DNA of 35,531 nt, taken from a virus. Made by a program: the position numbers and the translations under genes. Below, one piece after another: positions 15,759 to 35,170 of this stretch. The stretch lies in IMG/VR virus record IMGVR_UViG_3300032265_002388, positions 1-35,531 of that record; one strand, written 5' to 3'. Numbering within the stretch: the first letter of the stretch is position 1; each line of letters opens with the position of its first letter. The notes below the pieces were generated by a model. It saw only the letters and a list, made by a program, of their open reading frames with translations. It was not told the DNA's origin and searched no databases.

Positions 15759-18700
15759 TGAAGCAAGTTCGCAGTGTAGAGTTCTTACCAGAAATATTTC
15801 AAACCCCGGTTAACAAACAATTTCTGTCGGCTACGTTGGATCAGCTGATCCAAAATCCAGCATACACACAAACACAAGGATTTATTGGCCGTAGAGTTGG
15901 GCCTGGAGTCAATGCCAACGACAAGTATGTTGTTGAACCTACAAAAACTCGCACAGATTACCAACTAGAACCTGGGGTAGTACAAGTTGACCCAGCAGAC
16001 AGTCACAAGGTTGTGGATGCAATAACTTATCCTGGTATCAATGATGCTCTACAATTACAAGGCGCATTTACCGATAACGCCGACAGACTTTACACCAGTG
16101 ACTATTATACCTGGGATCCATTTGTTGATTTTGACAAGTTTGTAAACTATGCACAATATTATTGGGTACCCGAAGGTCCACTCGCAGTGGATATATCGTC
16201 TACAACTATTCCGCTTACTGATAGTTTTACAGTTACTAGAGCCAATGGAGTATATACATTCTCAGGAATCACCGGGGATAATCCAGCGATCACTTTAGTG
16301 CGCGGTGGCAGTTATACTTTTAATGTGGCCCAGAATCAATCAGAAACTGTAAACTTTCGTGTAACCAATAACCATACTAGCAGCTGGAATATTGATTATT
16401 CACCCAACCCTACATTAACATTAACTCGTGGCAACACCTATGTGTTTAATCTGTCACAGTCATTTCCTTGGGCATTTTATTTTAAAACAGAACCTAGTCT
16501 GGGCACAACCAACGTGTATTCAGATGGAGTATTCAACAACGGTGCCGGTGCCGGCCTAATTACGTTTACAGTGCCACAGGATGCTCCTGATGTGTTGTAC
16601 TATTGCAATGACCTAGAAATCAATCTGCGTGGCCAGATTAATGTCATAGATGGCACGCCCGGCACTGGGCCAGGATTTTGGATTCAATCCGCCCCAGGAG
16701 TTGATGGGCGGGTTCCCACTACTCCTAACATCAGCAGTAGACATGTATTAGGAGTAATTAACAACGGCGAAGATTTAGGCACGGTTACATTCAATGTACC
16801 ATATGCTGATGCCCAGAATTTTTATTACGATATGCCTAGTATCGGTACGGTAGACTTGGTTACTAGTTTATCCTTTGATCAAATCGATGGCCAGTATATT
16901 TCAGATTTTTTTACCACATACCCTAACGGCATTGATGGAATAACAAATTTACAAAACAGAACATTGGTTTTTATAACCGAGGATGTATTGCCTACTCCTG
17001 CTAATCTATATAGTATATGGCGCATACAGTATTTGACCGATACAAATGGTGTTTACTTATCACTACAATTTGTTCAGTCAGTAGACCTAAACAATAAATT
17101 TACCATTGGGTTTGGTAATGAATATTCTAATACCAGTTGGTATTATAACAACGAATATTTTGTTGAAATCCCTCTGCTGACCGCCGACAAGAATGTTTTG
17201 TTTTATCAAGATGGCACTGACCCAGAAATAGTAGGACGATTTAACATAATCGATCTTGATATGTCGACTTCAATTGATGTTGACGCCATTATTGGATCAC
17301 CTACCTACACCAGCCCCAACGGAGTGACTCTCACCAATGGTATGAAAGTGGTATTCCGCGGCAATGTATATCCTACAACATATCAAAACAATGAATACTA
17401 TGTAGAAGGAGTAGGAACAGCTATACGATTATTATCTGTACTCGATTATGTTACGCCAGAAACCTACACCAACAGTGAAACAATTCCTTACGATACTACA
17501 CCGTACGATTCTAACAACTTTGATGGAAATTTAAATCAACCTACCGTTCCAGATTACTTGACCATTAATCGTGCCAGTCCTGATCTTAATGCTTGGACCC
17601 GTAGCAATCGCTGGTTCCATATTGATGTGATTACTGCCAGTGCTGAATACAATAATACAACGCCTGTGGTAAACAATTTGTTCCGTGCTCGTAGACCTAT
17701 CCTAGAATTCCGTGCCGGTACCCGTTTATTTGATTTTGGTACTCAAGGTCTAGCACCGGTAGATATTATTGATTTTGTTCAGACCGACGCCCTAAGCAAT
17801 GTCAATGGCTCAATAGGCTACAGTACCGATGGCTACACGTTAATCAACGGAAGTACTATTATTTTTGCCGCTGACACAGATCCAGAAGTTCGTAAAACAG
17901 TGTACCAAGTTCAATTTGTAACTCCTGATACCCAACCACCATTGATTCCAGAACCCATTATTGTTCTTATACCAATTACAACAGCATTGGTAGATCAAAC
18001 TGTGGTTGTACTTGACGGCATTACACAACAGGGATTGTCGTACTACTATGATGGCGTAGCGTGGATCAAAGCACAACAAAAAATTAGCGTAAACCAACCC
18101 CCGTTGTTTGACATCTATGACAGCAACGGAGTTAGTTTTGGCAATCGTGCTATCTACCCTAGTTCAAACTTTACAGGCAGTCCACTATTCAGTTATGCCA
18201 TAGGCAATGCTGCGCCTGATCTAATATTAGGTTTTCCATTGACCTATCTAAGTCTGACCAACATTGGTGACATCGTTTTTGATAATAATTTTTACAAAGA
18301 TTCTTTTAACTATACCATAAACAGCGCAGGACAAACAGTTCCACTTAGCACTGGCTTTGTACGAGAATACAGCACTAGAGTCACCTTTGAAAGAGAAATT
18401 GGCTGGCAGACAGCAGTAACTCCTAGCCTAATACGTCAACAATTCCAGTTTACCTATGATGGAGGTCCGCTGTTATTGGATGTGGCTGTCAATCCCAATA
18501 CCACTGTACCAGCTGTACAAATATATGCCAACGGCACCTTCCAGGAAGCCTATAACTATCAATACACAGTAGGCACCAACACAACTACAATTAACCTGTC
18601 GACCACCTATGTACCTGGAGATTTAATTGAAGTAACTGTGCCCAGCGATCAAGTCAGTGTGGCAGGATTCTATGAAGTTCCTATTAATTTAGAAAATAAT

Positions 18701-21700
18701 CCGCTAAATGGCAACAGCGAGCAATTTACCCTGGGCACCATACGCAATCATTATATTGGACTTGCAGAAAATCTTATAGCCTTACAGGGACCTGCCATCG
18801 GTTCAAACAACACTAGAGACCTTGGCAATATTGTTCCTTACGGTCTACAAATACTACAACAAAGTTCGCCATTGACGTTGACCGGTTACTTTATGAGAGA
18901 TGCCAACTATAATATTTTTGCGTCATTGGCCTACAATAGTACAGAATACATTAAATTTAAATCACAGTTGTTAAATGCTGTAACTACCTTTGGTATTGCA
19001 GAATATGGCAATTGGACCGTGGCTCAGTTACTAGATGCCAGTATTGCCCAAATAACCGCAGGCAGAACTAATCTAAATCCATTCTATTGGAGTGATATGT
19101 TGCCTACCGGCACAACGTTTACGTCAAATAGTTACACGGTCAATCCTATAACCACTAATAGATTTAACACGATACAGACCTATAACTTTACTGAATCAAA
19201 TTATCTGGGGTTGTGTGTCTACGTTAACGATGTTATGTTAACACGTAACTATCAATATGTAGTAAGCACCGAAGGCCCTACGTTGACCATCTTAGTACCT
19301 TTAGCAGTAGGTGACGTAGTTACTATCAATGAATATTCTGATACCGCCGGAAACTTTGTTCCTAACACCCCTACTAAACTAGGCCTGTATCCTAAATATG
19401 AGCCCAAAATTTTCTTAGACACAGATTATGTAAATCCTACCCCGGTGATCCAAGGACACGATGGATCAATCACTGTGGCCTTTGGTGACATACGAGATCA
19501 AGTATTATTGGAGTTTGAAAAACGAATTTTTAGTAATCTTAAAAATGATGACAATCCTCCTCCACTAGTTGCTGAAGATGTAATTCCAGGTTATTTCCGC
19601 AAGACAGATTATACACAAGCCGAGATCAATCAGATCTTAGGTGAAAATTTCTTGGCGTGGGTAGGGGCCAACAAATTAAACTATACTGAACAAACCTACA
19701 TAGCTGACAATGAGTTTACCTACAACTATAGTCAAGCTGGCAACAGACTCGACCAAGAACCATTGCTCGGAGCATGGCGCGGTATCTATCGTTATTTCTA
19801 CGATACACTAACACCCAATATCACACCATGGGAAATGTTAGGTTTAAGCGAACAGCCTGAATGGTGGGAAAATACTTATGGCCCAGCACCATACACCAGT
19901 GACAACTTGGTACTATGGGATGACCTGGCTGCTGGCTTGATCAAGGATCCTGTTGCACCTTATATAAACCCTAAGTATGTGCGATCAGGATTACTTGATG
20001 TAATTCCGGTTGATAGTCAAGGCGAGTTGTTGCCACCATTCTATAGTGTAATGGGTGCCTACAATCCACAAGGATTTATTAAGAGTTGGCAAGTAGGCGA
20101 TGGTGGTCCAGTTGAAGCTTCGTGGTGGATGAGCAGTAGCTATCCATTTGCTGTTATGCGTTTGTTAATTCTAACACGTCCAGCAGAATTTTTTAGCCTG
20201 TTTGCTGATCGCGATCGGTATCGTTATAGCCCAGAATTTGATCAATATCTTTACAATGGTCGTTATAGAATACAACCACAAAACATCGAAGTGTACGGCA
20301 ATGGTGTCAGCAAGGCCAGTTATATTGACTGGATTGTTGACTATAATCAGCAACTAGGTATCAATAGTACAGATGCTCTAACCACAGATTTAGCCAATCT
20401 AGATGTACGTTTGTGCTATCGTGCTGCATCGTTTATTGCGCAACAAAACTTGGCCATTTATTTGGAAAAAAGTAGCCCTAAAAGTCAAAACAGCAGTCTG
20501 CTGATTCCTCCTGAAAGTTACAATTTATTGTTGTACAAAAATCAGCCATTTAACAGAATAAACTACAGTGCTGTGATTGTAGAAGTAGTCGATGGCGGAT
20601 ACAGTGTATATGGATACAGCACCACCGATCCGTATTTTTCAATTTTAGAAAGTCAAGTTTCTGGACTTACACAAACCTTGACAGGTGGAAATATATCAGT
20701 AACAGTGCCTAAACAGTATACTGATCGAACAGTACAGATCCCCTATGGTTATACCTTTACTAACTTGACCAGTGTGGTTGATTTCTTGTTGAGCTACGGT
20801 CAATATCTAGTCGACCAAGGTCTTACATTTATCGCCCAGGAAAATGGCTATACCTTAAACTGGATACAAATGGCCCAAGAATTCCTATACTTTGCTAACC
20901 AAGGCTGGGCCACCGGAACCATTATCAACTTAAATCCGTCGGCTACGCAAGTCATATCATTTAAGGCCGGTGCAATAGTAGATTCTATTGTGACTTACAC
21001 TCCAGAAAATTTGTTGCTAGATCAAAATCGTCAGGCATTCAATGCTAGAAATTTGATCATCCAACGCGAAGGCAATACATTTACGTTAAATCCAGAACCT
21101 GGTGGCAACCAAACCATTAGTTATTTGCAGTTAAAATTTACTGATTATGAAGACATGGTGGTCTTAGATAATCGAACAATTTTTAACGACTTGATTTACA
21201 ATACTGTCACAGCTGAAAGACAGAATCGTCTTAAATTGATTGCGGCCACAAGTACCCAGTGGAACGGTACCTTAAATGCCCAGGGCTTTATATTAAATCA
21301 AAACAATGTGGTTGCCTGGAAGGCCAACACCAAATATACCAAAGGTGACATTGTCATTTACAAAAACAGTTATTGGCAGGCAGCTACAATTGTACAGCCT
21401 AAACTTAAATTTGAATATGCAGATTGGTACAAGAGCAACTATGACGCTATACAACAGGGACTATTACAGAACTTAGCCACCAAGGCTGATCAGTTGGCCA
21501 ACAGCTACGATACACAAACGGCCAATCTCAATAGAGACAATGACTTATTGGCCTATAACTTAATTGGATTTAAGCCAAGGCAGTACATGGTAGATTTGGA
21601 TTTAAGTGACACTAGTCAGATAAATTTATATCAACAATTTATCAAAACCAAAGGAACCATACGGGCCACAGATCTGTTTACACAGGTTAATTTTAACAAG

Positions 21701-24700
21701 TTATCTGCCCAATACAATATATACGAAAATTGGGGGATACTAGCCGGGACATATGGTGCTCAAGCCAATCGTAGTTGGTTTGAAATCGCTCTCAACGAAG
21801 CGGTGTTAACTGGTAATCCAAGCACAGTACAAATCGTCCAGCCAGGAACTGAAAGCCAAGCCGACCAGACTGTCTTGTTGAGTAATCTCTGGGCCGAGAG
21901 CTACGCAATACCTAACACCGATATACTACCTACTACCTATACCACTGATTCAGATACAGCGTTGCCAAGTGCAGGGTATGTCAATATCAATGACGTAGAT
22001 ATCACGGTATTCAATCTCAACAATCCTAGTAGCATTGCCGCTAATCTTAGCACTGTTGGCAACGGCACCACAATCTGGGTAGCGCAGGATAACAGTTATG
22101 ACTGGAACATTTATCAGTGTGCCCAAGTCACCGGTCGAGTAATACAACTAACCGATAATCTTAACGGCACCAGCCGCGCACAGTTCAGCACTACCGTTGA
22201 TCTTACAGTGGGTGATTTAATCATTATTCGCTATTTTAGCAACACTGTAGATGGCGTGTATCGCGTATTAAGCCGCCCAACAATTGACAGTGTGGTAATC
22301 CAGTATGCATTTACTAACTCTAATCAGACCACACTAACCGGCACAGGCATTGCATTTTACCTACAGACCATGCGTGTAAGTCAGGCCAGCGACGTTGGCA
22401 CATTACCCTATGTAAATCAACTCATACCAGGAGCCATGGCCTGGGTTGACAATGATGGATCAGGCCATTGGGAGGTACTGCAAAAAACTAATCCGTTTGC
22501 ACCAATTGACTTATTGAGTGCAAATGATGTACGGCCAAACGCATTGTTTGGTTACAGCTTGTCTCAAAGTGCAGATCACTATGCATTATTAGTTGGTAGT
22601 CCTGGAGATTATGAAGGGCTTGGATCGGTATATACTTTTAGACTAGGTAATGTTAATAATTATATAGACAACACTGAACTATATCTAACAGCAACCGATG
22701 CAAGTGGTTATGGTTGTAGTGTGGACTTTGGTGATCGTACCTGGGCTGTAGCCGGGGCAAACACTAGTAATTCTGGCGCTGGGTATGCCACAGTGCTTTA
22801 TTTGATTCCTGGATCAAATGATTATTTACAAACACAATTATTAGTAGCACCAGACGAAGACTTCGGCGCTATTGGATTTGGCACTGCGGTGCAAATGAGC
22901 GATAACGAGCGTTGGATGTATATTAGTGCCCCTGGCGGCAATCGAATATATGCATATGGCCGTGTTGATGTTCCTAACCAGTCAGTGTCTTACATTACCA
23001 ACGGAACCACCGCTACATTTGTTTACAATAACAATATCATAATTGATCCAACATATCCTGATCAATTGTTAGTAACTCTTAATAATAATCTACAAGTGTA
23101 TGGCATAGATTATACCATTAATGGTGTATTAGTTCAATTTTTAACTACGCCTGGACCTAATAATAAAATAGTTATAAGCCGCCGCACAACTGTACAGTTA
23201 GATTTTGAAACTTATTATGGAGTAACACAAAACAGCACCACAGGCTCGGGGTCTGAGGCCACATTTACAATAACCAATACTCGCGGTGATTACTCAGTTA
23301 GTTTAACTGCACCTGGTATTAATTATACAGTTGGCAATCAATTGACTATTAGTTATACACAAATTGATCCATTTGGAAGTGCGGCCAATAATATTACTGT
23401 TACAGTAACCGAAGTAACCGACGGTGGCATTACTGGGTTTACGTGGACTGGTAGTGGTGTTAACAATACTTCAGTATTTTCTCTAACAGATTATTTGTAT
23501 ACTGTAACTACATATGACTCATTTACTGTGGACGTCAACGGCGTACTGCAACGTCCCTACATCGACTATACGTTTAGTAGTGGCACACTTACATTTATTA
23601 CCGTTCCTGATCCAGGTGCTATTATTGCAGTACAGTCAGCTACAGTCGGAGCTTATTGGCAATATGTAAATACGCTTGACTCTAATTATTATCCCATCAA
23701 TGTTGATCCCAATGCCCAGCTTGGTCATAGTATTACTGTAGATAAGTTAGGTACTCAAATACTAGCAGGCGCACCGTATGATACTGCCATGGATGCCCAG
23801 GGCAACCCTATTGCCAATGCAGGTGCGGTGTATGCATTTGATCGCAGTGTAGTTGAATATATCATTACCGATGTTGCACAATTGACCTACGCTATTCCTG
23901 GAGCATATACCAATCCCGTAGCAGTGGTATTAAACAATCAATATCTAACCAATACGGTTCAATACATCAATGGTCAATTTACCGTAAGCGGAAGTAATAT
24001 TGTGTTGTCTGGCTCTGTGTCTTTGACTGTGGGTGACATTTTAAAAATTGAAACCAATCAGTTTCAATTTGTGCAAAAATTTACAGCCAATACTGTAATT
24101 GATGAATCAGAATTTGGGCATAGCATAGATATTTGTTCTAATAGCTGTAGCGTATATGTTGGCGCTCCACTTGATTCTTTTGCTAGTGGAGTTCCGCAAG
24201 CTGGCATGGTTCAACGCCAAGTGAACCAGTCAAGGGTCTATGGTATAACTACTAGCACTGTGGCAAATCCTGCATTAACCCCAGGCGACACTATTCGTAT
24301 CAATAATATAGAAGTCACAGTACCTGATAGTCCTAATAATACCGTAGCTGGACTGATATCAGCTATTAACTCATCTAAGATACCTAATGTTGTGGCAACC
24401 AACGCAACCGATGTTACATTAACCGGTGACGGAATAACAAAGATATTCAGTGTTGGCAACATTTATTCGTCTGCTAGCTATGTAAATAAAACGGTAGTCT
24501 ATATCAACAATGTGTTACAAACTCCTAACGTAGATTATACCTACAATACCACCACACGTCAGATTGCATTTGTATCAACTCCTGCCAAGGGTGCAACAAT
24601 ATTAGTAGTTGCTGGCCGAATGACTGTGAGTGTAATCAATCTTGCAGCCGCAGAAGAATTTAACAAACTTACTGTGTTACCAGGGGTCGTTGCGGATGAT

Positions 24701-27700
24701 AGTACTATTGGTTCAGCGTTTTATGATCTTGGCTTTACTACCTATGCGTATACACAAACTATTACGAGTCCGGTGCCCACAGAGTTTGCCCAGTTTGGTG
24801 CTGCGGTAAATGTAAATACCGGTGCCGTGAATTTAGTAGTAGGCGCACCAAATGGCAACGTCTACGAACCAACTACCTTTGACGCTGGCAAAACCTACTT
24901 TGATGAGCATAGTACTACGTTCTTTGGATATATTAAAAATTCTGGAGTAGTTTATACCTATGATTATTTGCCTAGTTCTGATAACAGTCTAGCCAATCCT
25001 GGAAAATTTGTTTTTGGACAACAGGTCTATGTAACCACGTTGGCTACTGGAGACCTATTTGGTACAGCAGTTAACTATAGAAATGGTAGATTGTTAGTAG
25101 GAGCACCCGGCAGTGATCTTGGCGACAGCAGTGTAAACTATGGCAGTGTATCCGTGTTAGATAATCCCAAAGATGCGGCAGTATGGCAAGTGCTTTATTC
25201 TCAACAACCAATGGTTGATGTAAACTTAATCAATTCAGTATATTCTTACGATAAACTGTTAAACAGCACACAGACTTACTTTGACTACATCGATCCATTA
25301 CAAGGTAAAATCTTGGGCGTGGCACGTAGAAATATTGATTATATTGGTGCCGTTGATCCAGCCAGTTACAACACTGGCACTGTACACAATATAGGCACTA
25401 GCTGGGGCCCTGCACACGAAGGAGAAATTTGGTGGGATACTAACTCAGTTAGATTTATTGATGCCAATCAAGACAATATAACTTACGCTAGCCGCAGATG
25501 GGGACAAGTATTCCCAGGCAGTACAATTGATATCTATCAGTGGACTGCTAGCTCTGTACCACCAGTTAATTATACCGGTATCGGTACACCACTTAGTACC
25601 ACTAGTTACACCGCACACTCATCTATAGATAATCAAGGTCTGTTAGTTACAACCTATTACTTCTGGGTCCGCGGAATCAATACTGTAGCCACCGCACACG
25701 GTAAAACTCTGAGTGCTACAGCTATTGCCAGTTATATTCTAAGTCCATCCAGCAGTGGCTTGCCCTACATAGCAGCACTGACGGCCAATGCCATTGCTAT
25801 CTACAATGCCGATACGTTATTGTCAGCATTTGATACTATATTACACGTGGAATATGACCGGCAGGCTCAAGGCGGCACCAACGACATACACACAGAATAT
25901 GATTTTATTGCCGACGGAAAAGCTGATGCATTTTTAAACGCAAATTTATATCGTAAGTTTGTAGATAGTTTCTGCGGGGTAACTGCTTCGGGTGCTGCCG
26001 TACCAGATCCTTTGTTAAGTCCTGGCATGCAGTATGGCGTACAGTTCCGGCCACGCCAAAGTATGTTTGCTAATCGCTTTAAGGCCTTGGAAAATTACCT
26101 AGGTTATGCCAATACTGTATTGGCACAATATCCTATAAGCGAAACCCGCAGTTTCCGTTTGTTAAACAGTAGTGAACCTACTCCGGCAGCCAACTCCGGT
26201 GCCTGGGACTACGAAGTAGCCACGCTTGAAATATTAGCCTACCAAGATCTTTATGTAGTACCTATTGGATATCTATATCTAGTGTTAAGTGATACTAGCC
26301 AGAACGGACGTTGGACCATATATGAAGTCGCCAATGGTACCTTGCCTGGACAACGTGTATTAAATTTGGTACGGGTACAGAACTATGATACCCCTTTATA
26401 TTGGAATTACATCAACTGGTACCTCCCAGGATACAACAACAGTATTCAACCCGTTGCTACAGTGGCTAACACAGCTGGGCTACAAACTTTAAGTTTGAGC
26501 TCTGCACCCGTTGGCAGCAGTGTCAAAGTCACTGCCAATGGCCGAGGTAAATTTGAAATTTATCTGCGCACTGATCTTGGGTTTGACCGCGTAGGTCTTG
26601 AGGACGGAACCATTGAATTTAGTTCGGTGCTATGGGATTATGCCGCAGGAGGATATGGATTTGATGCCGAAGTGTTCGACGCAAATTATTTTGACCAAGA
26701 GCCTGTGATTGAAACTCGTCAAATTATCAAGGCAATCAACGAAGACCTGTTTGTTGACGATCTGCTAGTTGAACGCAATCGTGCATTGATGTTAACATTT
26801 AAATTTATCTATAGTGAATTTACTAGTCCCAATTGGCTGATTAAGACCAGCTATATTGATGTAGATCATGTGATCCGTGGCCTGTTACCATACGAGCTAT
26901 ATCAACCAGACAATCAAACTTTTGTGTCAGATTATATTACTGAGGTCAAACCGTATCACGTACAGACGCTTGCATTTAATTTGATCTATGATGGTATTGA
27001 TCGTTATCCCGGTGCATTGACTGATTATGACGTGCCCGCTTATTGGAACACCACACTAGATGCTCCACAATTTACAAGCCCGGTATTAACACCTTATACA
27101 TATTCTAACAGTGTAGATCAATCATTTATCAGTGATGCCGCTCCTAATGCTCAAATTTGGTTAGAAAGACCCTGGAGCGATTGGTTTAATAATTATACAT
27201 TAAGCCTAGACATTGTCGATGTAAATGACACTACGACATCATACTACGATGTTCCAGTTATAACCATTGGAGCAGAATGGGAAGCTGCCACTGCGTACTC
27301 TGTTGGACAACAAATAGCATACCGCAGCAATCTGTATACCGTAACCGCGGCTGGAATCACAGGAACCTCTGCACCAACATTTACCTCTGGAAGTTCTGTT
27401 GACGGTACTGCAACTTTAGCTTACACAGGACCAAGAGCACAGGCCACAGCCATACTTAAAGCCAATGGCACTATAGCTACTATTACAGTGACAGTGGCCG
27501 GGTCAGGATATTTGACCACTCCACTGATAGCTATCAATGGCGTTTATCCTGATTTTACAACGTCCGCTATAAAATTAATTGCTGTGATGGGCAACAATTT
27601 AGTTAGAAGCATTAATACTACTATCAAGTACGATCGTTATCAATATGCCACTACCATTTATGAATGGCAAGCAGATGTGGTCTACACCCAAGGTGAGCAG

Positions 27701-28132
27701 GTACGCTGGCGCAACCGTGTTTGGTCGGCCAATGCCACACAATCGTCTTCTACTTTTGTTGTCGAAGACTGGACTCCAGTTAATGCTGATTCATTGAGTG
27801 GTGTAGATCGCACCATGGGATTCTACGTACCTACTGTAAACATGCCTGGACTTAGTTTGCCACTGTTAATCGACGGAGTTGATTATCCAGGCGTACAAGT
27901 TGATGCCCCCAATTTCAATCAAAACACTGGATTTGATATAGGCAACTATGATATTAATCCGTTTGATAATATATCCTACGATGCAGAAGGGCGCCCAACA
28001 TACGATCCAGCTATATTGGATGCTCGCTATTCCAGTGCCTATTTAGATCCATATCTTGGTACCAGAGCCACAGATATCAACGTAGATGGAGGTGCTTATG
28101 TTGGACCTTACAGTAGTCATGCACCCGAATAA
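15758..28132 (+). CDS. 7: Giant gp7-like baseplate wedge protein, upstream part (4124 aa, ends at an in-frame TAA)
   Basis: The N-terminus (FLPEIFQTPVNKQFLSATLD, FIGRRVGPG, then TWDPFVDFDKFVNYAQYYWV) matches the oversized gp7-type wedge proteins of T4-like aquatic phages. Approximate residue map: duplicated cupredoxin-like domain 150-300 (ITLVRGGSYTFNV, LTLTRGNTYVFNL); FRARRPILEF near 635; wedge core 1255-1400 (WRGIYRYFYDTLTP, PWEMLG, PEWWENTYGPAPYTSDN); CBM5/12-like WKANTKYTKGDIVIYKNSYW near 1853; seven FG-GAP-like repeats 2258-3140; TTYYFWVRG near 3300; VSDYITEVKPYHVQT near 3725; two more CBM-like motifs near 3840 and 3968. Small beta modules with a 'V-N-G-x-x-Q...DY' pattern recur throughout. 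T4 gp7 has 1032 residues. The frame stops at 28130-28132 but continues without shift; see the entries below. Confidence 0.82.
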   Translation: MKQVRSVEFLPEIFQTPVNKQFLSATLDQLIQNPAYTQTQGFIGRRVGPGVNANDKYVVEPTKTRTDYQLEPGVVQVDPADSHKVVDAITYPGINDALQLQGAFTDNADRLYTSDYYTWDPFVDFDKFVNYAQYYWVPEGPLAVDISSTTIPLTDSFTVTRANGVYTFSGITGDNPAITLVRGGSYTFNVAQNQSETVNFRVTNNHTSSWNIDYSPNPTLTLTRGNTYVFNLSQSFPWAFYFKTEPSLGTTNVYSDGVFNNGAGAGLITFTVPQDAPDVLYYCNDLEINLRGQINVIDGTPGTGPGFWIQSAPGVDGRVPTTPNISSRHVLGVINNGEDLGTVTFNVPYADAQNFYYDMPSIGTVDLVTSLSFDQIDGQYISDFFTTYPNGIDGITNLQNRTLVFITEDVLPTPANLYSIWRIQYLTDTNGVYLSLQFVQSVDLNNKFTIGFGNEYSNTSWYYNNEYFVEIPLLTADKNVLFYQDGTDPEIVGRFNIIDLDMSTSIDVDAIIGSPTYTSPNGVTLTNGMKVVFRGNVYPTTYQNNEYYVEGVGTAIRLLSVLDYVTPETYTNSETIPYDTTPYDSNNFDGNLNQPTVPDYLTINRASPDLNAWTRSNRWFHIDVITASAEYNNTTPVVNNLFRARRPILEFRAGTRLFDFGTQGLAPVDIIDFVQTDALSNVNGSIGYSTDGYTLINGSTIIFAADTDPEVRKTVYQVQFVTPDTQPPLIPEPIIVLIPITTALVDQTVVVLDGITQQGLSYYYDGVAWIKAQQKISVNQPPLFDIYDSNGVSFGNRAIYPSSNFTGSPLFSYAIGNAAPDLILGFPLTYLSLTNIGDIVFDNNFYKDSFNYTINSAGQTVPLSTGFVREYSTRVTFEREIGWQTAVTPSLIRQQFQFTYDGGPLLLDVAVNPNTTVPAVQIYANGTFQEAYNYQYTVGTNTTTINLSTTYVPGDLIEVTVPSDQVSVAGFYEVPINLENNPLNGNSEQFTLGTIRNHYIGLAENLIALQGPAIGSNNTRDLGNIVPYGLQILQQSSPLTLTGYFMRDANYNIFASLAYNSTEYIKFKSQLLNAVTTFGIAEYGNWTVAQLLDASIAQITAGRTNLNPFYWSDMLPTGTTFTSNSYTVNPITTNRFNTIQTYNFTESNYLGLCVYVNDVMLTRNYQYVVSTEGPTLTILVPLAVGDVVTINEYSDTAGNFVPNTPTKLGLYPKYEPKIFLDTDYVNPTPVIQGHDGSITVAFGDIRDQVLLEFEKRIFSNLKNDDNPPPLVAEDVIPGYFRKTDYTQAEINQILGENFLAWVGANKLNYTEQTYIADNEFTYNYSQAGNRLDQEPLLGAWRGIYRYFYDTLTPNITPWEMLGLSEQPEWWENTYGPAPYTSDNLVLWDDLAAGLIKDPVAPYINPKYVRSGLLDVIPVDSQGELLPPFYSVMGAYNPQGFIKSWQVGDGGPVEASWWMSSSYPFAVMRLLILTRPAEFFSLFADRDRYRYSPEFDQYLYNGRYRIQPQNIEVYGNGVSKASYIDWIVDYNQQLGINSTDALTTDLANLDVRLCYRAASFIAQQNLAIYLEKSSPKSQNSSLLIPPESYNLLLYKNQPFNRINYSAVIVEVVDGGYSVYGYSTTDPYFSILESQVSGLTQTLTGGNISVTVPKQYTDRTVQIPYGYTFTNLTSVVDFLLSYGQYLVDQGLTFIAQENGYTLNWIQMAQEFLYFANQGWATGTIINLNPSATQVISFKAGAIVDSIVTYTPENLLLDQNRQAFNARNLIIQREGNTFTLNPEPGGNQTISYLQLKFTDYEDMVVLDNRTIFNDLIYNTVTAERQNRLKLIAATSTQWNGTLNAQGFILNQNNVVAWKANTKYTKGDIVIYKNSYWQAATIVQPKLKFEYADWYKSNYDAIQQGLLQNLATKADQLANSYDTQTANLNRDNDLLAYNLIGFKPRQYMVDLDLSDTSQINLYQQFIKTKGTIRATDLFTQVNFNKLSAQYNIYENWGILAGTYGAQANRSWFEIALNEAVLTGNPSTVQIVQPGTESQADQTVLLSNLWAESYAIPNTDILPTTYTTDSDTALPSAGYVNINDVDITVFNLNNPSSIAANLSTVGNGTTIWVAQDNSYDWNIYQCAQVTGRVIQLTDNLNGTSRAQFSTTVDLTVGDLIIIRYFSNTVDGVYRVLSRPTIDSVVIQYAFTNSNQTTLTGTGIAFYLQTMRVSQASDVGTLPYVNQLIPGAMAWVDNDGSGHWEVLQKTNPFAPIDLLSANDVRPNALFGYSLSQSADHYALLVGSPGDYEGLGSVYTFRLGNVNNYIDNTELYLTATDASGYGCSVDFGDRTWAVAGANTSNSGAGYATVLYLIPGSNDYLQTQLLVAPDEDFGAIGFGTAVQMSDNERWMYISAPGGNRIYAYGRVDVPNQSVSYITNGTTATFVYNNNIIIDPTYPDQLLVTLNNNLQVYGIDYTINGVLVQFLTTPGPNNKIVISRRTTVQLDFETYYGVTQNSTTGSGSEATFTITNTRGDYSVSLTAPGINYTVGNQLTISYTQIDPFGSAANNITVTVTEVTDGGITGFTWTGSGVNNTSVFSLTDYLYTVTTYDSFTVDVNGVLQRPYIDYTFSSGTLTFITVPDPGAIIAVQSATVGAYWQYVNTLDSNYYPINVDPNAQLGHSITVDKLGTQILAGAPYDTAMDAQGNPIANAGAVYAFDRSVVEYIITDVAQLTYAIPGAYTNPVAVVLNNQYLTNTVQYINGQFTVSGSNIVLSGSVSLTVGDILKIETNQFQFVQKFTANTVIDESEFGHSIDICSNSCSVYVGAPLDSFASGVPQAGMVQRQVNQSRVYGITTSTVANPALTPGDTIRINNIEVTVPDSPNNTVAGLISAINSSKIPNVVATNATDVTLTGDGITKIFSVGNIYSSASYVNKTVVYINNVLQTPNVDYTYNTTTRQIAFVSTPAKGATILVVAGRMTVSVINLAAAEEFNKLTVLPGVVADDSTIGSAFYDLGFTTYAYTQTITSPVPTEFAQFGAAVNVNTGAVNLVVGAPNGNVYEPTTFDAGKTYFDEHSTTFFGYIKNSGVVYTYDYLPSSDNSLANPGKFVFGQQVYVTTLATGDLFGTAVNYRNGRLLVGAPGSDLGDSSVNYGSVSVLDNPKDAAVWQVLYSQQPMVDVNLINSVYSYDKLLNSTQTYFDYIDPLQGKILGVARRNIDYIGAVDPASYNTGTVHNIGTSWGPAHEGEIWWDTNSVRFIDANQDNITYASRRWGQVFPGSTIDIYQWTASSVPPVNYTGIGTPLSTTSYTAHSSIDNQGLLVTTYYFWVRGINTVATAHGKTLSATAIASYILSPSSSGLPYIAALTANAIAIYNADTLLSAFDTILHVEYDRQAQGGTNDIHTEYDFIADGKADAFLNANLYRKFVDSFCGVTASGAAVPDPLLSPGMQYGVQFRPRQSMFANRFKALENYLGYANTVLAQYPISETRSFRLLNSSEPTPAANSGAWDYEVATLEILAYQDLYVVPIGYLYLVLSDTSQNGRWTIYEVANGTLPGQRVLNLVRVQNYDTPLYWNYINWYLPGYNNSIQPVATVANTAGLQTLSLSSAPVGSSVKVTANGRGKFEIYLRTDLGFDRVGLEDGTIEFSSVLWDYAAGGYGFDAEVFDANYFDQEPVIETRQIIKAINEDLFVDDLLVERNRALMLTFKFIYSEFTSPNWLIKTSYIDVDHVIRGLLPYELYQPDNQTFVSDYITEVKPYHVQTLAFNLIYDGIDRYPGALTDYDVPAYWNTTLDAPQFTSPVLTPYTYSNSVDQSFISDAAPNAQIWLERPWSDWFNNYTLSLDIVDVNDTTTSYYDVPVITIGAEWEAATAYSVGQQIAYRSNLYTVTAAGITGTSAPTFTSGSSVDGTATLAYTGPRAQATAILKANGTIATITVTVAGSGYLTTPLIAINGVYPDFTTSAIKLIAVMGNNLVRSINTTIKYDRYQYATTIYEWQADVVYTQGEQVRWRNRVWSANATQSSSTFVVEDWTPVNADSLSGVDRTMGFYVPTVNMPGLSLPLLIDGVDYPGVQVDAPNFNQNTGFDIGNYDINPFDNISYDAEGRPTYDPAILDARYSSAYLDPYLGTRATDINVDGGAYVGPYSSHAPE
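16200..16655 (+). other. Duplicated cupredoxin-like domain inside the gp7-like protein
   Basis: Two successive modules read ITLVRGGSYTFNV...VNFRV and LTLTRGNTYVFNLS...FYFKTEP, then ITFTVPQDAPDVLYYC. This is the beta-sandwich pattern of cupredoxin-like domains. The usual copper ligands (Cys-x-x-His...Met) are not preserved after YYC, so metal binding is doubtful. Confidence 0.55.
22530..25180 (+). repeat. Seven FG-GAP-like repeats (beta-propeller candidate) in the gp7-like protein
   Basis: Seven segments share '(F/Y)G-x-(S/A)-(V/I/L)...(V/I)-G-(A/S)-P'. They are LFGYSLSQSADHYALLVGSP, SGYGCSV...WAVAGA, FGTAVQMSDNERWMYISAP, LGHSITVDKLGTQILAGAP, FGHSIDICSNSCSVYVGAP, FGAAVNVNTGAVNLVVGAP and FGTAVNYRNGRLLVGAP. 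The number fits one seven-bladed propeller, with beta modules inserted between blades 3 to 6. Confidence 0.65.
28130..28132 (+). other. In-frame TAA interrupting the giant gp7-like reading frame
   Basis: The frame reads SSHAPE-TAA-LIPGSEFDTLDLRVYT. The position after the stop is exactly in register with the 687-codon frame ending at 30223. From my recollection of homologous phage proteins, this junction reads PEELxPG...FDTLD, so a GAA codon is expected where TAA stands. No ribosome-binding site, late-promoter motif or ATG occurs at the junction. Confidence 0.75.
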
Positions 28133-30223
28133 CTAATTCCAGGCAGTGAATTTGATACATTGGATCTACGTGTATACACACGCCCAGGTGCAGATTGGTT
28201 ACGACGCGGCCACGGATTTCCTTCTGCTAGTATCAAATATACCATAAGTCTGTCTAATTTGACTTTGAGTTTTGCTGGGTTATTACCATACACAGCCTTG
28301 GTACTAGTAGCCAACCAGACTCAAAGTCTAGATCTTCATGAGGGTACAGACTACACAGTAGATTATGTTGCTCAGACAGTAACCGTAATACTTGGAGGTA
28401 ATGTACAAGTTGAAGACGTAATTATAATCACTGCATACGAAATTGGTGGCGGCAATCAACTTTACAAAAATATCTATAATGGTGCTGATATAGGTAATAC
28501 TATTACAGTGCCGGTGGCCTACTACACAGACACTGGCGCCGAACAAATACAAGAATTTGTAATCTTTGTAAACGGTGTTGTAACCACAGATTATACTTAC
28601 GCTGCAGATGGCGTACAAAATACAACCGTTACATTTGGAACAACCTATACAGACACAGATAGTATTACCGTGTACGTGTTGGCACCCACATTTGTTGAAG
28701 CTACCAATACAACCATTAACTACAGTTGGAGTGCACCGCAAACACAGCTAATCACTGCGGATGGAACTACACTGAATTTTATCCTTGACAATAGTTTGAT
28801 CTATGTTAATCCCGATAGCTTGATAGTTACAGTCAACGGCAATCGTGCTAGAACCGCGGCTGGAATACGTCATGTAGGTGATGGTAGCACTGCATATACT
28901 TTGCCTGACAGGTTAGGATTTAATCAGTCTATAATTGTAGACAACGAAGTAAATGTCTACATAGATGATATTCCACAAATACTATACGTAGATTTTGTAT
29001 TAGAACCCTACGATGGAACCCCAAGAGAAATAATCTTTATTACAGATCCGCCCGTTGGTTCTGAGATACTAATCTATGTAACAACCGATACACAATGTTA
29101 TGTTAGCGGTAATCAGTTGATATTTAATCCAACTGGTGGGCTTGTTCCAGTAGCTGGAGATATTATTGCAGTCACTACCTGGAATGACACCCGTCAGCAA
29201 AAAATACTAAGTCAGTGTTTTGTAGGTCCTGTCACCTCAGGCATTACCGCAGTAGAACCATACGACAGTACCGACTTTGATGTAGGCATCACTACCGGAG
29301 ACGCAGGCAGCTACGATTACAGTTCGGGCATTATTGTTACAAGAAACAATCTTGATTTAGGCACAGTAATAACTGACCCAGATCGTTTATGGGTATCATT
29401 GAACGGTCGTAGACTATTCAACAACATTGGGTTTACTGTGAGCGGAACTGAAGTGATCTTAACCTCGGGGATATTAAGTGCGTCGGATGTGGTTATGATC
29501 ACCCAGTTTACAAATTTTGTAGTTCCAGAAAGCATGGCATTCCGCATATTCCAAGACATGCGTGGAGTACAGGCCACTTACCGTATCACTCCAGAGACTA
29601 CCACTGCCACTACAGCCACAGTAGCAGTTAACGCCGATATAATCCATGTAGCCAATGCCGCAACATTACCAGAACCTAATTTTGATGTCAACGTTTGGGG
29701 AGTGGTAACTATTGATGCCGAACGCATCATGTATCGTTACCGAGACACTGATAACAACACCATCAGTGGCTTAATGCGCGGCACTGCTGGCACTGCGATT
29801 ACGGCACACGCCAATGGCTCTATAGTTTACAACATGGGTCGCGGTAATTTGTTGCCAACAGAATATCAAAATTACATAGTGTCTAACATAACTTATCCAT
29901 TGGTATCGGGTGTAAATCTTGGAGACGGCTCAACCACCGTCTTTACAGCTGACGCTATTAATTTATTATTAGAAGACAGTACCATTAGAGACGAAAGTTT
30001 GGAAATATATGTGGGTGGAACTAGAGTGACCACCGGATATACCGTTACCGCTAACGATCCAGCTGAAATTACCTTTGATGAAGCACCCCCAGATGGAGTA
30101 GAAGTAACTATGCTGGTACGCCGTGGAGTTACATGGTATGCACCGGGTACAAGTACCGCTAGTAATGGTAATCCTTTACAAGTTACTGAAACAGCGGCCG
30201 CAAGGTTTTTACGGGGCCTATAA
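28133..30223 (+). pseudogene. 7: C-terminal part of the gp7-like protein, separated by the in-frame TAA
   Basis: This open frame of 696 codons is in the same phase as the 4124-aa frame. The first possible start is TTG 28160, with only a weak AGGCAG 13 nt upstream, so independent initiation looks poor. The content continues the upstream protein: FDTLDLRVYTRPGADWLRRG at the beginning, then five or more beta modules of the same type (FVIFVNGVVTTDYTY; VNVYIDDIPQILYVDF; LWVSLNGRRLFNNIGF; LEIYVGGTRVTTGYTV). Then follow FQDMRGVQATYRI, VVTIDAERIMYRYRDTDNNT, SGLMRGTAGT and the terminal TAAARFLRGL, which I recognise as the normal end of gp7-type proteins. It may be the product of stop readthrough, of separate translation from TTG, or a lesion or sequencing error; the coding itself is not decayed. 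Confidence 0.65.
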
Positions 30224-30242: not shown

Positions 30243-30374
30243 ATGAGCGATAATACTAAACAACCAACTCCTGCACCAAAGCGCCCTAACGAAACTGGGT
30301 CAATTAGTGTTGAGGGATTTATAAAGATTTTTGATCCAAAAACCAAACAAGTAATTGTGGAGAAACGAGCATGA
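30243..30374 (+). CDS. 43-residue protein related to the N-terminus of the next gene product
   Basis: ATG 30243 to TGA 30372-30374 encodes MSDNTKQPTPAPKRP followed by ISVEGFIKIFDPKTKQVIV and EKRA. The stop overlaps the next start (ATGA). Its second half aligns with the start of the following protein (KIEGFVKITDPATGEVLLDK): VEGFIKI-DP-T--V---K versus IEGFVKI-DP-T--V---K. It therefore looks like a partial duplication of a single beta-hairpin module preceded by a Pro-rich flexible tail. Function is unknown; binding the same baseplate or fibre partner as its neighbour is a reasonable inference. The tight overlap and the motif similarity make it very likely to be a real gene despite its size. Confidence 0.7.
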   Translation: MSDNTKQPTPAPKRPNETGSISVEGFIKIFDPKTKQVIVEKRA

Positions 30375-30976
30375 TCCAGCCAGGCCTATGTAAAATTGAA
30401 GGGTTTGTTAAAATTACAGATCCAGCCACAGGCGAAGTTTTGCTGGATAAAAAGAATGCAATCCATTACGAAAATATCAGCATCTGCATGGCCAATACTC
30501 TGGCTGACAGAAATACTGGATTTATTTACAAAATGGCCTTTGGCAATGGCGGCAGTGCCGTAGATCCCACAGGCGTTATTACCTATTTGCCGCCAAATAC
30601 CACTGGACAAAATGCCAGCTTGTACAACCAAACTTACAGCAAAGTAGTTGACAATAATTCAGCAGCCGATACAGATCCTGCCAACAACTATATGACTGTG
30701 GTACACACCTCGGGAAATGTGTACACTGATATTATAACCACTTGTTTGTTGGACTACGGCGAGCCTGCTGGGCAACAGGCCTTTGATAACAGCACCAATT
30801 TTAATGGTGAATACGTGTTTGACGAATTAGGATTACAGTGCTGGAACGGAAGTGCCAGTGATTTATTATTAATTACTCATGTTATTTTCCACCCAGTGCA
30901 AAAGAGTTTAAATCGTCAAATTCAGATTGATTACACGCTTCGCATACAAACGTTAACTAACTTGAGTGCGGCATAA
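30371..30976 (+). CDS. Virion structural protein, possible baseplate/gp8-position protein
   Basis: A 201-residue protein beginning KIEGFVKITDPATGEVLLDK and NAIHYENISICMANTLAD, then YKMAFGNGGSAVDPTGVITY, LYNQTYSKVVDN and FDELGLQCWNG. This layout recurs directly behind gp7 in T4-like aquatic phages and the gene occupies the place of gp8 in T4, but I cannot show homology to gp8. No signal peptide, membrane segment or catalytic motif is visible. Composition is rich in Asn, Thr and aromatic residues, as in virion proteins. It starts inside the ATGA overlap with the 43-codon gene, whose product resembles its N-terminus. Structural role likely; exact role unknown. Confidence 0.55.
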   Translation: MIQPGLCKIEGFVKITDPATGEVLLDKKNAIHYENISICMANTLADRNTGFIYKMAFGNGGSAVDPTGVITYLPPNTTGQNASLYNQTYSKVVDNNSAADTDPANNYMTVVHTSGNVYTDIITTCLLDYGEPAGQQAFDNSTNFNGEYVFDELGLQCWNGSASDLLLITHVIFHPVQKSLNRQIQIDYTLRIQTLTNLSAA

Positions 30977-31023: not shown

Positions 31024-32304
31024 ATGTCATATACAATTAACTTAACAGATGGTGCGTTATTTGCTACCATAGCAGACGGTACAATTAATACCTCCAGCTC
31101 AATGACCTTGGTAGGCAAAAACTACGCCGGGTATGGACAGTTTTTAGATACCAACTTTATCCATCTGTTGGAAAATGCATCAAATACTACAGCCCCAGGT
31201 GCGCCACTTACTGGTCAACTTTGGTGGGACTCGGGCAACGGCCTGATGAAGGTATATACCGGCACTACATGGAAAACAATCAGCAGTGCTACTTCTAGCT
31301 CAACTGCTCCAACTAGTAATGTAACTGGTGACTTATGGTACGACACAGTTAATCAACAATTAAACGTATGGACTGGCTCAACATGGTTATTGGTTGGCCC
31401 ACAATTTACCGCTGGACAAGGTACCACAGGTGCCATTGCAGCTATAATCACAGATAATTTAAGTGTTGCCCACACTGTTGTTGAATTATATGTGAACGAT
31501 GACATTGTAGGCATTATCAGCAAGGATGCTACTTTTACTCCTGCTGTAGCAATTCCAGGATTTACCACAGTTCGCCCTGGTATTACTTTGGCCACAGTTG
31601 TTGGCAGCCAAGCTCCATTATTCCAAGGCACAGCTACTAATGCACAACAACTCGGTAACGTTGCTGCTACCTCATTCATGCGTACAGATGCCAACACTAG
31701 CACCAGCGGTACTTTATCAGTGCTTAACAACACAGGATTAGCAGTAGGCGCCAGCAGTAACTTCAGAGTTTCTGTGGCTGGTAATGATGTTACATTAAGA
31801 AACCAAACTTCGGGCGGCAATCTCTACCTTGGTGTAAATGTAGCAGGAAATGTTACTCCAACATTGATCATGTATGGGTCAAACGGTGCCATTAGCGGCA
31901 ATCAAATCAATGCCAACTATGCTGACGTTGCAGAACGTTTTGAAGCCGATACAGAATTAACACCTGGCACTGTAGTCGAACTAGGTGGGTCAGCAGAAAT
32001 TACTCAAGTTAATACGGATTTAAGCGAAAATGTGTTCGGGGTCATAAGTACACGAGCAGCATATTTAATGAACAGCTCAGCAGGCTCAGACGCTACACAT
32101 CCCCCAGTTGCAATGACTGGACGAGTTCCTGTAAAAGTTGTCGGCCAAGTGTGCAAGGGCGATAGATTGGTTTCGGCTGGTAATGGCATGGCTAGAGCAG
32201 CACAGGCAGGCGAGGCCACAGCATTCAATGTAATTGGTCGAGCTTTAAAAGATAAATTAGATGTTACCGAAGGCACAGTAGAAGCCATCGTTACAATTAA
32301 ATAA
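31024..32304 (+). CDS. Tail fibre/virion surface protein with C-terminal YADVAERF domain
   Basis: A 426-residue protein. The N-terminal third carries FLDTNFIHLLENASNT and two copies of a tryptophan motif, GQLWWDSGNGLMKVYTGTTW and GDLWYDTVNQQLNVWTGSTW, common in phage fibre proteins. The middle is Thr/Asn/Gly-rich. The C-terminal 130 residues start YADVAERFEADTELTPGTVV and continue MTGRVPVKVVGQVCKGDRLV to VEAIVTIK. This end is frequent in fibres of marine phages and is reminiscent of the Peptidase_G2 (intramolecular chaperone autoprotease) fold, where the C-terminal domain guides trimerisation; self-cleavage here is not shown. GGAG lies 6 nt upstream of the start. Confidence 0.7.
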   Translation: MSYTINLTDGALFATIADGTINTSSSMTLVGKNYAGYGQFLDTNFIHLLENASNTTAPGAPLTGQLWWDSGNGLMKVYTGTTWKTISSATSSSTAPTSNVTGDLWYDTVNQQLNVWTGSTWLLVGPQFTAGQGTTGAIAAIITDNLSVAHTVVELYVNDDIVGIISKDATFTPAVAIPGFTTVRPGITLATVVGSQAPLFQGTATNAQQLGNVAATSFMRTDANTSTSGTLSVLNNTGLAVGASSNFRVSVAGNDVTLRNQTSGGNLYLGVNVAGNVTPTLIMYGSNGAISGNQINANYADVAERFEADTELTPGTVVELGGSAEITQVNTDLSENVFGVISTRAAYLMNSSAGSDATHPPVAMTGRVPVKVVGQVCKGDRLVSAGNGMARAAQAGEATAFNVIGRALKDKLDVTEGTVEAIVTIK

Positions 32305-33397: not shown

Positions 33398-33706
33398 ATG
33401 AACACTGACGAATTAATTTCCTATGGTCGCGCTCGTTTTGAACATGCGGCCGCACGACGCACCCTTAAAGAAAAATATCAAGCCAAAATGACCTTTGCCT
33501 ATCGTGGTGGTATGTGGAAGGCTGGTCCAGAACTAAATTCAACAATATTTACTTGTGGACGTATTGGTGAAGTAGTGTTGCTAGACTTGTATGAAAACCC
33601 TGTTAAAATTGATACCAAGGAATTAATGGCACTGAGTCAAGAACGCTTTAACGAGCAAATGAACGCTTGGCTTGTAGAATACGAACAACTTAATCAAAAT
33701 AGATGA
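33398..33706 (+). CDS. Conserved phage protein of unknown function
   Basis: A 102-residue protein with TFAYRGGMWKAGPELN, then EVVLLDLYENPVKIDTKEL and FNEQMNAWLVEYEQL. I have a sense of meeting this pattern in T4-like aquatic phages but know no function. It is soluble, mixed alpha/beta, with no membrane segment or catalytic motif. It is the first gene of an operon with glycosyltransferase-like genes and ends in an ATGA overlap with the next. Its ATG lies 6 nt after a TATAAT box, suggesting a leaderless mRNA. Confidence 0.7.
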   Translation: MNTDELISYGRARFEHAAARRTLKEKYQAKMTFAYRGGMWKAGPELNSTIFTCGRIGEVVLLDLYENPVKIDTKELMALSQERFNEQMNAWLVEYEQLNQNR

Positions 33707-34461
33707 AGACTGGCGCACTGATATTTGCCCGTAACAATGAGCAGATTGATTATGTTGCCATGGCCGAGTGGTCGGCTCAGAATATTAAACGTCATCTGGG
33801 CATACCAACACACATAGTAACCGACGACGCAACACCCGGCGATAACACTAGACATTTTACAGATGTTGGGCATGTGACCTGGCACAATCTTAATCGTATG
33901 GATGCTTACCGACTAAGTCCATGGGATCGCACATTAGTATTAGATGCAGACTATGTTGTTGCCAGCGATCAATTAAAAATATTATTAGACAGCAATTGTA
34001 ATTTTCTAGCACACCGCCAAGCATACGACGTCACTGGATGTAATGACTTTAAGGAATTAAATTATTTTGGCCGTAATCATATGCCCATGTGGTGGGCCAC
34101 AGTTATGATGTTTTGCCGGAGTCAACATGCAGAATTAATATTCGATTCAATGCAAATGGTACGAGACAACTGGAATCACTATCGTGCGTTGTATAAAAAC
34201 TCAAACTCGACATATCGTAATGACCATGCATTAAGCATTGCGCTGGGCATAGTCAATGGACATACATTAAATCACGCTGAAATTCCCTGGGCTCTCGCAA
34301 GCCTAACACCCGATCACCAACTAACACAACTAGCCCAAGATCATTATCGTGTTGAGTTTATAAACACAGAAAATCGACCACGCTGGATTCAATTAAAGAA
34401 TCAAGATTTTCATGCCATGGGTAAAAAGCATTTAGGAGATATAGTTGCCAATAACACATGA
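33703..34461 (+). CDS. GT-A-type glycosyltransferase-like protein
   Basis: A 252-residue protein. The N-terminus MKTGALIFARNNEQIDYVAM, then THIVTDD, resembles the nucleotide-binding start of GT-A folds, and DRTLVLDADYVVASD contains a DxD motif (DAD) for metal/nucleotide-sugar binding. Further conserved-looking parts are MWWATVMMFCRS and the YRNDHALSIAL segment, as in GT8-like enzymes where an aspartate helps the acceptor side. It likely transfers a sugar from a nucleotide sugar; the acceptor (phage DNA base, virion protein or host surface) is unknown. It overlaps the preceding gene by ATGA and the following gene by 17 nt. Confidence 0.65.
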   Translation: MKTGALIFARNNEQIDYVAMAEWSAQNIKRHLGIPTHIVTDDATPGDNTRHFTDVGHVTWHNLNRMDAYRLSPWDRTLVLDADYVVASDQLKILLDSNCNFLAHRQAYDVTGCNDFKELNYFGRNHMPMWWATVMMFCRSQHAELIFDSMQMVRDNWNHYRALYKNSNSTYRNDHALSIALGIVNGHTLNHAEIPWALASLTPDHQLTQLAQDHYRVEFINTENRPRWIQLKNQDFHAMGKKHLGDIVANNT

Positions 34462-35170
34462 ACGTGGTTATCTAATACCAGCCATTGGCGATGCGTATGT
34501 AAAATGCGCAAACCAATTAGCCGATAGTATTAGGCACTGGCATCCTGCAGCTAATATTACTATTCTAACCAAAGAAATGTTACCGCACGGTGACCTGGGT
34601 GGCTACACCAACGATTGGCAAGTGTTTCAATGTAGTCCTTATCGTCAAACAATTAAACTAGAAGCCGACATGGTATGCGCCAGTCCTATAGATCATTGGT
34701 GGACGTTGTTTGAACGACGTGATGTTGTTATTAGCCAAGGCGCAAGAACATTTTATGATGAGTCTGCCCAATCAAGATATTATAGAAAAATATTTGACCA
34801 AAATAATCTACCAGACGTTTACAATGCCATTACCTATTGGAGGTTAAGTACTACAGCTAAAGAGTTTTTTGATCTAGTTCGTAATATATTTGAACATTGG
34901 GAAGAATATAAAAAATTGTTAAAGTTTCCAGAAGAGACCCCTAGCACCGACGTGGTGTATGCTATAGCCGCAGTAATCATAGGGCCGGAAGTTGTAACAC
35001 TGCCGCAGGGACTTGGTCCAACAATAGTGCATATGAAACAATATATTAATCCATTAATTGGCAACGACTGGACAAAAGAATTAACGTGGGAAAACAATCC
35101 GTTAAGGATTAATACTATAGCCCAGTGGGGCCTAGTGCATTATCACATCAAGGAGTGGAACTATGAGTAA
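34445..35170 (+). CDS. Second glycosyltransferase-like protein (TTG start)
   Basis: A 241-residue protein. The start is TTG 34445, supported by AGGAG (34434-34438) at 6 nt; the nearby ATG at 34458 is in another frame. It overlaps the previous gene by 17 nt. PYRQTIKLEADMVCASPIDH corresponds to the DxD region of its neighbour (LEADM versus LDADY), here with E-A-D in place of D-A-D. The remainder (VYNAITYWRLSTTAKEFF, STDVVYAIA, GPTIVHMKQYIN) also parallels GT-A proteins, where the final His can bind metal. The two proteins are probably diverged paralogues. Whether the altered DxD keeps activity cannot be judged. Confidence 0.6.
   Translation: MPITHERGYLIPAIGDAYVKCANQLADSIRHWHPAANITILTKEMLPHGDLGGYTNDWQVFQCSPYRQTIKLEADMVCASPIDHWWTLFERRDVVISQGARTFYDESAQSRYYRKIFDQNNLPDVYNAITYWRLSTTAKEFFDLVRNIFEHWEEYKKLLKFPEETPSTDVVYAIAAVIIGPEVVTLPQGLGPTIVHMKQYINPLIGNDWTKELTWENNPLRINTIAQWGLVHYHIKEWNYE

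Follow-up and report, generated by a model that had tools for sequence, protein, structure and literature searches.

A 43-codon gene beside a predicted phage baseplate connector gene resembles a separately encoded N-terminal arm of that connector

The small gene directly upstream of a predicted baseplate connector gene in this virus record very probably encodes a genuine protein, namely a copy of the connector's N-terminal arm that is translated on its own. Judged by its sequence, it appears to be the arm of the main protein in detached or duplicated form. The explanation that best accounts for the data as a whole, namely a separately encoded connector arm with an endonuclease-linked origin and a role in trans, has in our view roughly an even chance of being right. 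The window, by which we mean the whole stretch of DNA analysed, is a 35,531-base virus record with baseplate and tail genes. PHROG matches identify wedge subunits at 5676, 11903 and 12324 and a hub/lysozyme at 8875. From 5′ to 3′, the genes of interest are a giant baseplate gene, the mini-gene, a 201-aa gene and a 426-aa fibre-like gene, and the features used below are these:

15758–30223, + strand: giant baseplate gene upstream of the mini-gene, matching phrog_10938 (virion structural protein); two ORFs here, with an in-frame stop at 28130–28132
30243–30374, + strand: mini-gene, 43 codons, flexible tail and one β-hairpin (ORF, near relatives, selection, AlphaFold2 hairpin)
30285–30299, + strand: tail-motif codons, PNETG here (general pattern P[NDQT][ED]), from motif counts in minis versus main N-termini
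30318–30368, + strand: hairpin codons of the mini-protein, residues 26–42 (AlphaFold2 strands)
30359–30362, + strand: GGAG, Shine–Dalgarno-like, in the last mini codons and 8 bases before the ATG of the 201-aa gene; putative function
30371–30374, + strand: ATGA stop/start overlap (main ATG 30371–30373, mini TGA 30372–30374)
30371–30976, + strand: main gene, 201 aa, phrog_11259, baseplate connector by predicted fold (PHROG, AlphaFold2, fold matches)
30392–30454, + strand: first hairpin in the main protein itself, codons for residues 8–28 (AlphaFold2 strands 8–16 and 23–28; aligns with the mini-protein)
31024–32304, + strand: fibre-like gene, 426 aa, downstream (PHROG virion structural and tail fibre matches)

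The best local alignment of the 43-residue mini-protein (MSDNTKQPTPAPKRPNETGSISVEGFIKIFDPKTKQVIVEKRA) places its residues 17–42 on residues 3–28 of the 201-aa protein, ungapped and with a BLOSUM62 score of 67. Shuffling the mini-protein over 20,000 rounds gave a mean of 22.3 and a maximum of 48, with no round reaching 67, and comparison with 20 other frames of the window gave scores of 17–47, the 47 coming from a 593-aa frame. A profile of 23 minis matched a profile of 20 main proteins with a probability of 97.1 (E 7e-11) over 27 columns. The resemblance to the N-terminus of the 201-aa protein on which the original prediction was built is thus borne out, and the tandem arrangement with an ATGA overlap that it described is seen directly in the sequence; its coordinates, 30243–30440, span the mini-gene together with the greater part of the matching segment in the neighbour. 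Its claim that the small gene duplicates the first module of its neighbour stands as far as homology goes but is incomplete, because other phages carry the same tail and hairpin as the N-terminus of the main protein itself. AlphaFold2 (54 rows) predicts one hairpin only, as had been proposed: residues 1–25 are without secondary structure, and strands at residues 26–31 and 36–42 form a block with pLDDT 84–85 (pTM 0.29). The window mini matched no named family, PHROG included, and in particular not the phrog_11259 profile, against which the mini of phage Atu_ph07 reached E 0.068. Searching phages with the window mini by tblastn returned weak unrelated matches and nothing else, and a profile search of nine phage records found the module nowhere besides the main gene or the adjacent mini.

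The recurrence of the same gene pair in related phages had been named beforehand as the check on this gene, with conservation of the small frame as the deciding point. The frame is intact in 79 of the 80 closest IMG/VR loci, the remaining one (L033) being cut by the contig end, and in near relatives it likewise ends at the ATG of the main gene. Across 69 distinct sequences the core of the mini-gene has pS 0.716 and pN 0.219, and its tail pS 0.685 and pN 0.465; the residues of the mini-protein are under purifying selection. Hairpin columns such as I, D and P are invariant across minis while using several codons. The last five codons stand apart: their pS is 0.206, and GTG is kept in 66 and GAG in 68 of the 69 sequences. 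Since GGAG lies 8 bases before the main ATG and these codons are conserved, the last mini codons seem to double as the putative ribosome-binding site of the 201-aa gene, and a ribosome-binding site inside the mini-gene would mean that the two genes are translated together. Of the ten distant two-gene loci that have a usable mini start (L106, L111 and L152 are outside this count), nine have −1 to +15 nt between mini stop and main ATG, and L093 has 329 nt. In L106 the end of the mini is divergent.

Other routes of expression were tried and rejected. A fusion by programmed −1 frameshifting finds no X XXY YYZ slippery heptamer in the last 12 codons of any of 80 minis. Read-through of the stop fails as a general route, the frames being in register only in L095 and L104 among the ten distant two-gene loci; when the read-through chain of mini plus main protein was aligned for these two, the minis fell on the wrong hairpin. 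Nor does the mini occur as a stand-alone gene elsewhere: all 80 loci found with the mini profile have a main gene, bar one contig-end case. If the mini-gene is what it appears to be, frames as short as 40–50 codons next to tail genes can be genuine.

The 201-aa protein matches the phrog_11259 profile over residues 9–194 (E 4.5e-72) and so joins a family present in RaK2-, PBECO4-, Atu_ph07- and PA5oct-like jumbo phages (60 records). Its AlphaFold2 model (80 rows) has pLDDT 83.7 and pTM 0.81. Searched by sequence, the main-protein family has no relatives of solved structure. Foldseek with the predicted fold gave no match below E 0.1 in the PDB, and 38 matches at E 0.001 or better in a viral library, mostly to uncharacterised or tail-fibre proteins. 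The nine best rows of VIA-align are all tail and baseplate proteins of phages or tailed viruses: HFTV1 tail (Z 9.3), A511 gp105 (Z 7.4, rmsd 3.9, 123 aligned), a phi812 arm segment (7.0), phiKZ gp139 (6.8), phi812 baseplate (6.8 and 6.6), phiKZ baseplate periphery (6.2), a Klebsiella phage baseplate protein (5.6) and T4 baseplate (5.6); the tenth row has Z 4.0. Because Z values below 8, as in most of these rows, can reflect a common arrangement, we grade the fold match as moderate, and with that moderate confidence the 201-aa protein resembles the baseplate-to-fibre connectors of the T4 gp8/A511 gp105 type, which link the wedge to the fibre network (BW3TFN; PMC10811340). In its favour, the predicted fold matches A511 gp105 and the phi812 arm segment over most of its length, and the gene lies between baseplate and fibre genes. 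According to PMC10811340, such connectors are dimers arranged as beads on a string and threaded by an extended chain. This peptide-binding habit of its structural relatives makes a peptide ligand for the connector plausible. The baseplate or fibre setting suggested by the original prediction agrees with the gene neighbours, with these fold matches and with the PA5oct record, in which the homologue of the 201-aa protein and the neighbours of the mini carry an ESI-MS/MS annotation; the PA5oct mini itself is without one.

Relatives alternate between two architectures. In one, tail, hairpin and body are encoded by a single gene; in the other, a mini-gene for tail and hairpin is followed by a gene for hairpin and body. 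The flexible tail is marked by a KPNE/RPNETG motif, which reads KPNETG in the tail that mini-protein and one-gene protein can have in common. The window shares the second architecture with PA5oct and Atu_ph07, where mini-genes of 41 and 42 codons, annotated as hypothetical, lie upstream of a phrog_11259 gene, and differs from RaK2, Munch, Vibrio 2.275.O, SCTP-2, RAS14, XacN1 and Phosso, which have no separate mini. The proteins of Atu_ph07 and PA5oct retrieved 13 loci, Atu_ph07 itself included, of which 12 have a separate mini; the exception, L103, has a longer main protein that opens with a mini-like tail. A further 80 loci comprise eight with a separate mini (three repeating earlier contigs) and 72 of the one-gene type, three of which are doubtful: L107, L169 and L170 start within 75 nt of the contig start, where absence of a mini cannot be judged. 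Four loci (L092, L105, L119 and L171) duplicate the genome or contigs of Atu_ph07, L093, L096 and L099, and later counts exclude them. Searching with the mini profile gave 80 loci, partly overlapping the contigs of the 80 closest IMG/VR relatives: in 52 the mini leads straight to the main gene, in five an insertion of ∼640 nt separates them, 22 are one-gene and one is at a contig end.

Many one-gene proteins open like a mini; that of L216, for example, reads KPNETGSISVQGHIKIFDPQTKEVFIDKR and then NAIHYENF. At the point where the L216 protein reads on into NAIHYENF, most mini-genes stop after KR and one further residue, which is A, G or S. Over tail and hairpin, one-gene N-termini reach up to 0.83 identity to minis (29 residues), whereas the main N-termini of two-gene loci reach at most 0.61 (28 residues). 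The tail motif P[NDQT][ED] is present in 68 of 69 minis of the window's clade, in seven of 16 distant minis and in 22 of 73 one-gene N-termini (nine distant minis and 51 one-gene N-termini are without it), but in none of 73 main N-termini of two-gene loci. It is as if the function of the tail had moved to the mini-protein. The idea that minis are nearer than two-gene main proteins to one-gene N-termini also in the hairpin alone was refuted, with medians of 32.7 versus 35.1 bits; hairpin-only identity to one-gene proteins was 0.536 for minis and 0.570 for two-gene main proteins, the mini being the closer in 16 of 40 cases. Only the tail, therefore, separates minis from two-gene main proteins. 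RaK2, Munch, Vibrio 2.275.O, SCTP-2, RAS14 and XacN1 are without both mini and tail motif, suggesting that the arm is dispensable in some lineages. In Munch and RaK2 (L083 and L084) a 165-codon gene lies directly upstream of the phrog_11259 gene, in the place of the mini; its start is unlike the mini module.

Three observations lead us to the tentative reading, which we hold at somewhat less than an even chance, that the mini-protein acts on the connector as an arm in trans: the way in which the tail motif is distributed, the constant gene neighbourhood and the binding of peptides by the structural relatives. Mini and connector would be made from the same message, and the hairpin of the mini would dock on the connector by edge-strand addition or hairpin exchange. 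Its tail could then extend to an adjacent subunit or to the giant wedge protein, in the way expected of the covalent arm of one-gene phages. If true, this is a natural split baseplate connector whose arm can be removed or tagged separately, so that its role between fibre and baseplate is directly testable. The original prediction had raised competition or capping as a possibility, and an assembly cap can still be framed: the mini would occupy the hairpin site on the connector or on its partner during assembly only, blocking premature polymerization, and would then be displaced and so be absent from the virion. The hairpin common to both proteins fits this, as does the PA5oct mini, which lacks the mass spectrometry note that its neighbours have. 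However, in one-gene phages this tail and hairpin are a permanent part of the main protein, which favours a lasting arm; endonuclease-bearing phages (below) have a normal mini next to a main hairpin of foreign type, so that the two copies need not match closely; and the occurrence of the tail motif on minis and one-gene proteins but on no two-gene main N-terminus also disfavours a competitor or cap. We regard it as unlikely.

A role chiefly in translation seems less likely still. Here translation of the mini-gene would open or feed the ribosome-binding site of the connector gene and so set the connector dose, in keeping with the ATGA overlap, with the GGAG in last codons that hardly vary and with the short gaps in nine of ten distant loci. 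Such a leader needs no particular protein, and selection acts on the residues: pN is far below pS in the core without its last five codons, and hairpin columns such as I, D and P stay invariant while their codons vary. Slow decay of a non-functional leftover of a gene split would explain the altered end of the Atu_ph07 mini, yet it is very improbable given the intact frame in almost every near locus and the purifying selection. To us the arm acting in trans is the most likely reading.

How the two-gene state came about is suggested by what lies at the junction in some relatives. A tree of main-protein bodies (123 rows, the window's clade thinned to 25) needs eight state changes, at least three of them forced by starred branches. 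With 60 rows, omitting four long-branched one-gene rows (L087, L088, L089 and L103) and many near copies, a single two-gene clade was rejected (p-AU 0.004). Four of the 80 closest loci of the window's clade (L022, L069, L072 and L073) have an endonuclease-like ORF that begins at the ATGA of the mini, the main gene coming after it; the window and most two-gene loci have none. PHROG scans of the junction ORFs in L022 and L069 identified both as homing endonucleases, and at the corresponding position Atu_ph07 carries a GIY-YIG/NUMOD3 ORF. Main proteins encoded behind the endonuclease have a foreign hairpin, with an identity to that of the window of 0.36 or 0.50 against 0.95 or 0.90 for the body; in the 76 loci without an endonuclease the medians are 0.82 (hairpin) and 0.84 (body). 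These endonuclease phages retain a normal mini beside the foreign hairpin. L236, compared with the endonuclease-free L016, has a replaced hairpin of the L069 kind, and its DNA similarity to L016 resumes at the IHYEN codons. Between L069 and L073 identity is higher in the endonuclease (0.96) and hairpin (1.00) than in the upstream DNA (0.79), mini (0.90) or body (0.91); in the less clear pair of L022 and L073 the 5′ part of the endonuclease is common (0.93) and the hairpin differs (0.62). The one-gene N-terminus of Phosso aligns with the Atu_ph07 mini at a score of 89 and with the main N-terminus of Atu_ph07 itself at 56.5.

The replaced hairpins and the Phosso/Atu_ph07 alignment suggest a cassette of endonuclease plus replacement hairpin that enters just behind the hairpin codons. 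A cassette with its own start and hairpin would insert there into a connector gene, the cut-off arm would persist as a mini-gene, and later loss of the endonuclease would leave the overlap; recombination between the two hairpin copies could restore a single gene. That two-gene states arise through a homing endonuclease at the junction is, on these sequence comparisons, about as probable as its opposite. The endonucleases may instead simply have entered junctions that already existed. Somewhat short of evens, we would place a history that starts from an ancient two-gene state, with one-gene forms produced by fusion when the hairpin copies recombined and with endonucleases as late invaders. The scattered two-gene state (6–8 changes), the minis in very different lineages such as PA5oct and the presence of an endonuclease in only four of the 80 loci of the window's clade all speak for it, and since one-gene proteins are no closer to minis in the hairpin alone, an old two-gene state with repeated fusion is a plausible order of events. 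The endonuclease-linked replaced hairpins and the Atu_ph07/Phosso pair fit a split, though not exclusively. The full chain of events, in which a cassette with a replacement hairpin severs the arm, the resulting peptide of ∼45 residues becomes a staple or string joining connectors in trans and the two forms are exchanged repeatedly, is improbable. If it is true, a very small protein gene was born from a structural gene and then retained, with possible intermediates extant in phages.

Both components have precedents. Genes of T4-like phages, among them nrdA, gene 60 and gene 43, are split by homing endonucleases (PMC2988022). The present case is like them in that the endonuclease ORF overlaps the stop of the upstream fragment and flanking sequence is replaced; an endonuclease ORF at the break is seen in L022, L069, L072, L073, L236 and Atu_ph07. 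It also looks like a split gene in that the mini equals the tail and hairpin of unsplit one-gene N-termini in relatives, although here the hairpin is kept downstream as well. What sets it apart from the T4-like split genes is that the downstream gene still encodes the segment that was cut off, and that the junction lacks an endonuclease in most two-gene phages. For the gp8/gp105 connectors, the available part of PMC10811340 mentions no mini-gene of the kind found in the window. We did not meet a conserved separate arm beside a hairpin-keeping main gene in the available parts of PMC6102473, PMC7247149, PMC2988022, PMC11406892 and PMC10811340, a literature not targeted at the mini-protein, and phrog_11259 is named in no paper examined, supplementary tables aside in both cases.

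Some further observations concern the surroundings. An in-frame TAA at 28130–28132 (+ strand) parts the giant gene (15758–28132) from a same-frame ORF at 28133–30223. The frame is uninterrupted in relatives whose locus extends that far, such as L023, L031, L042 and L061, and the TAA is either a sequencing or assembly error or a true nonsense change in the window phage. Near its C-terminus the 426-aa fibre-like protein (31024–32304) matches the Peptidase_G2 intramolecular chaperone domain, though below threshold (23.3 bits, cut-off 25). The adjoining 252-aa and 241-aa frames at 33703–35170 (+ strand) look alike as putative proteins of glycosyltransferase type; the 241-aa frame, the second of the pair, matches phrog_1903, of unknown function. 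Two frames on the minus strand, 2–1285 and 2347–3504, have CxxxCxxC-type cysteines, by which they look like candidate radical-SAM proteins. In Phosso, too, a radical SAM protein is annotated right behind the tail genes.
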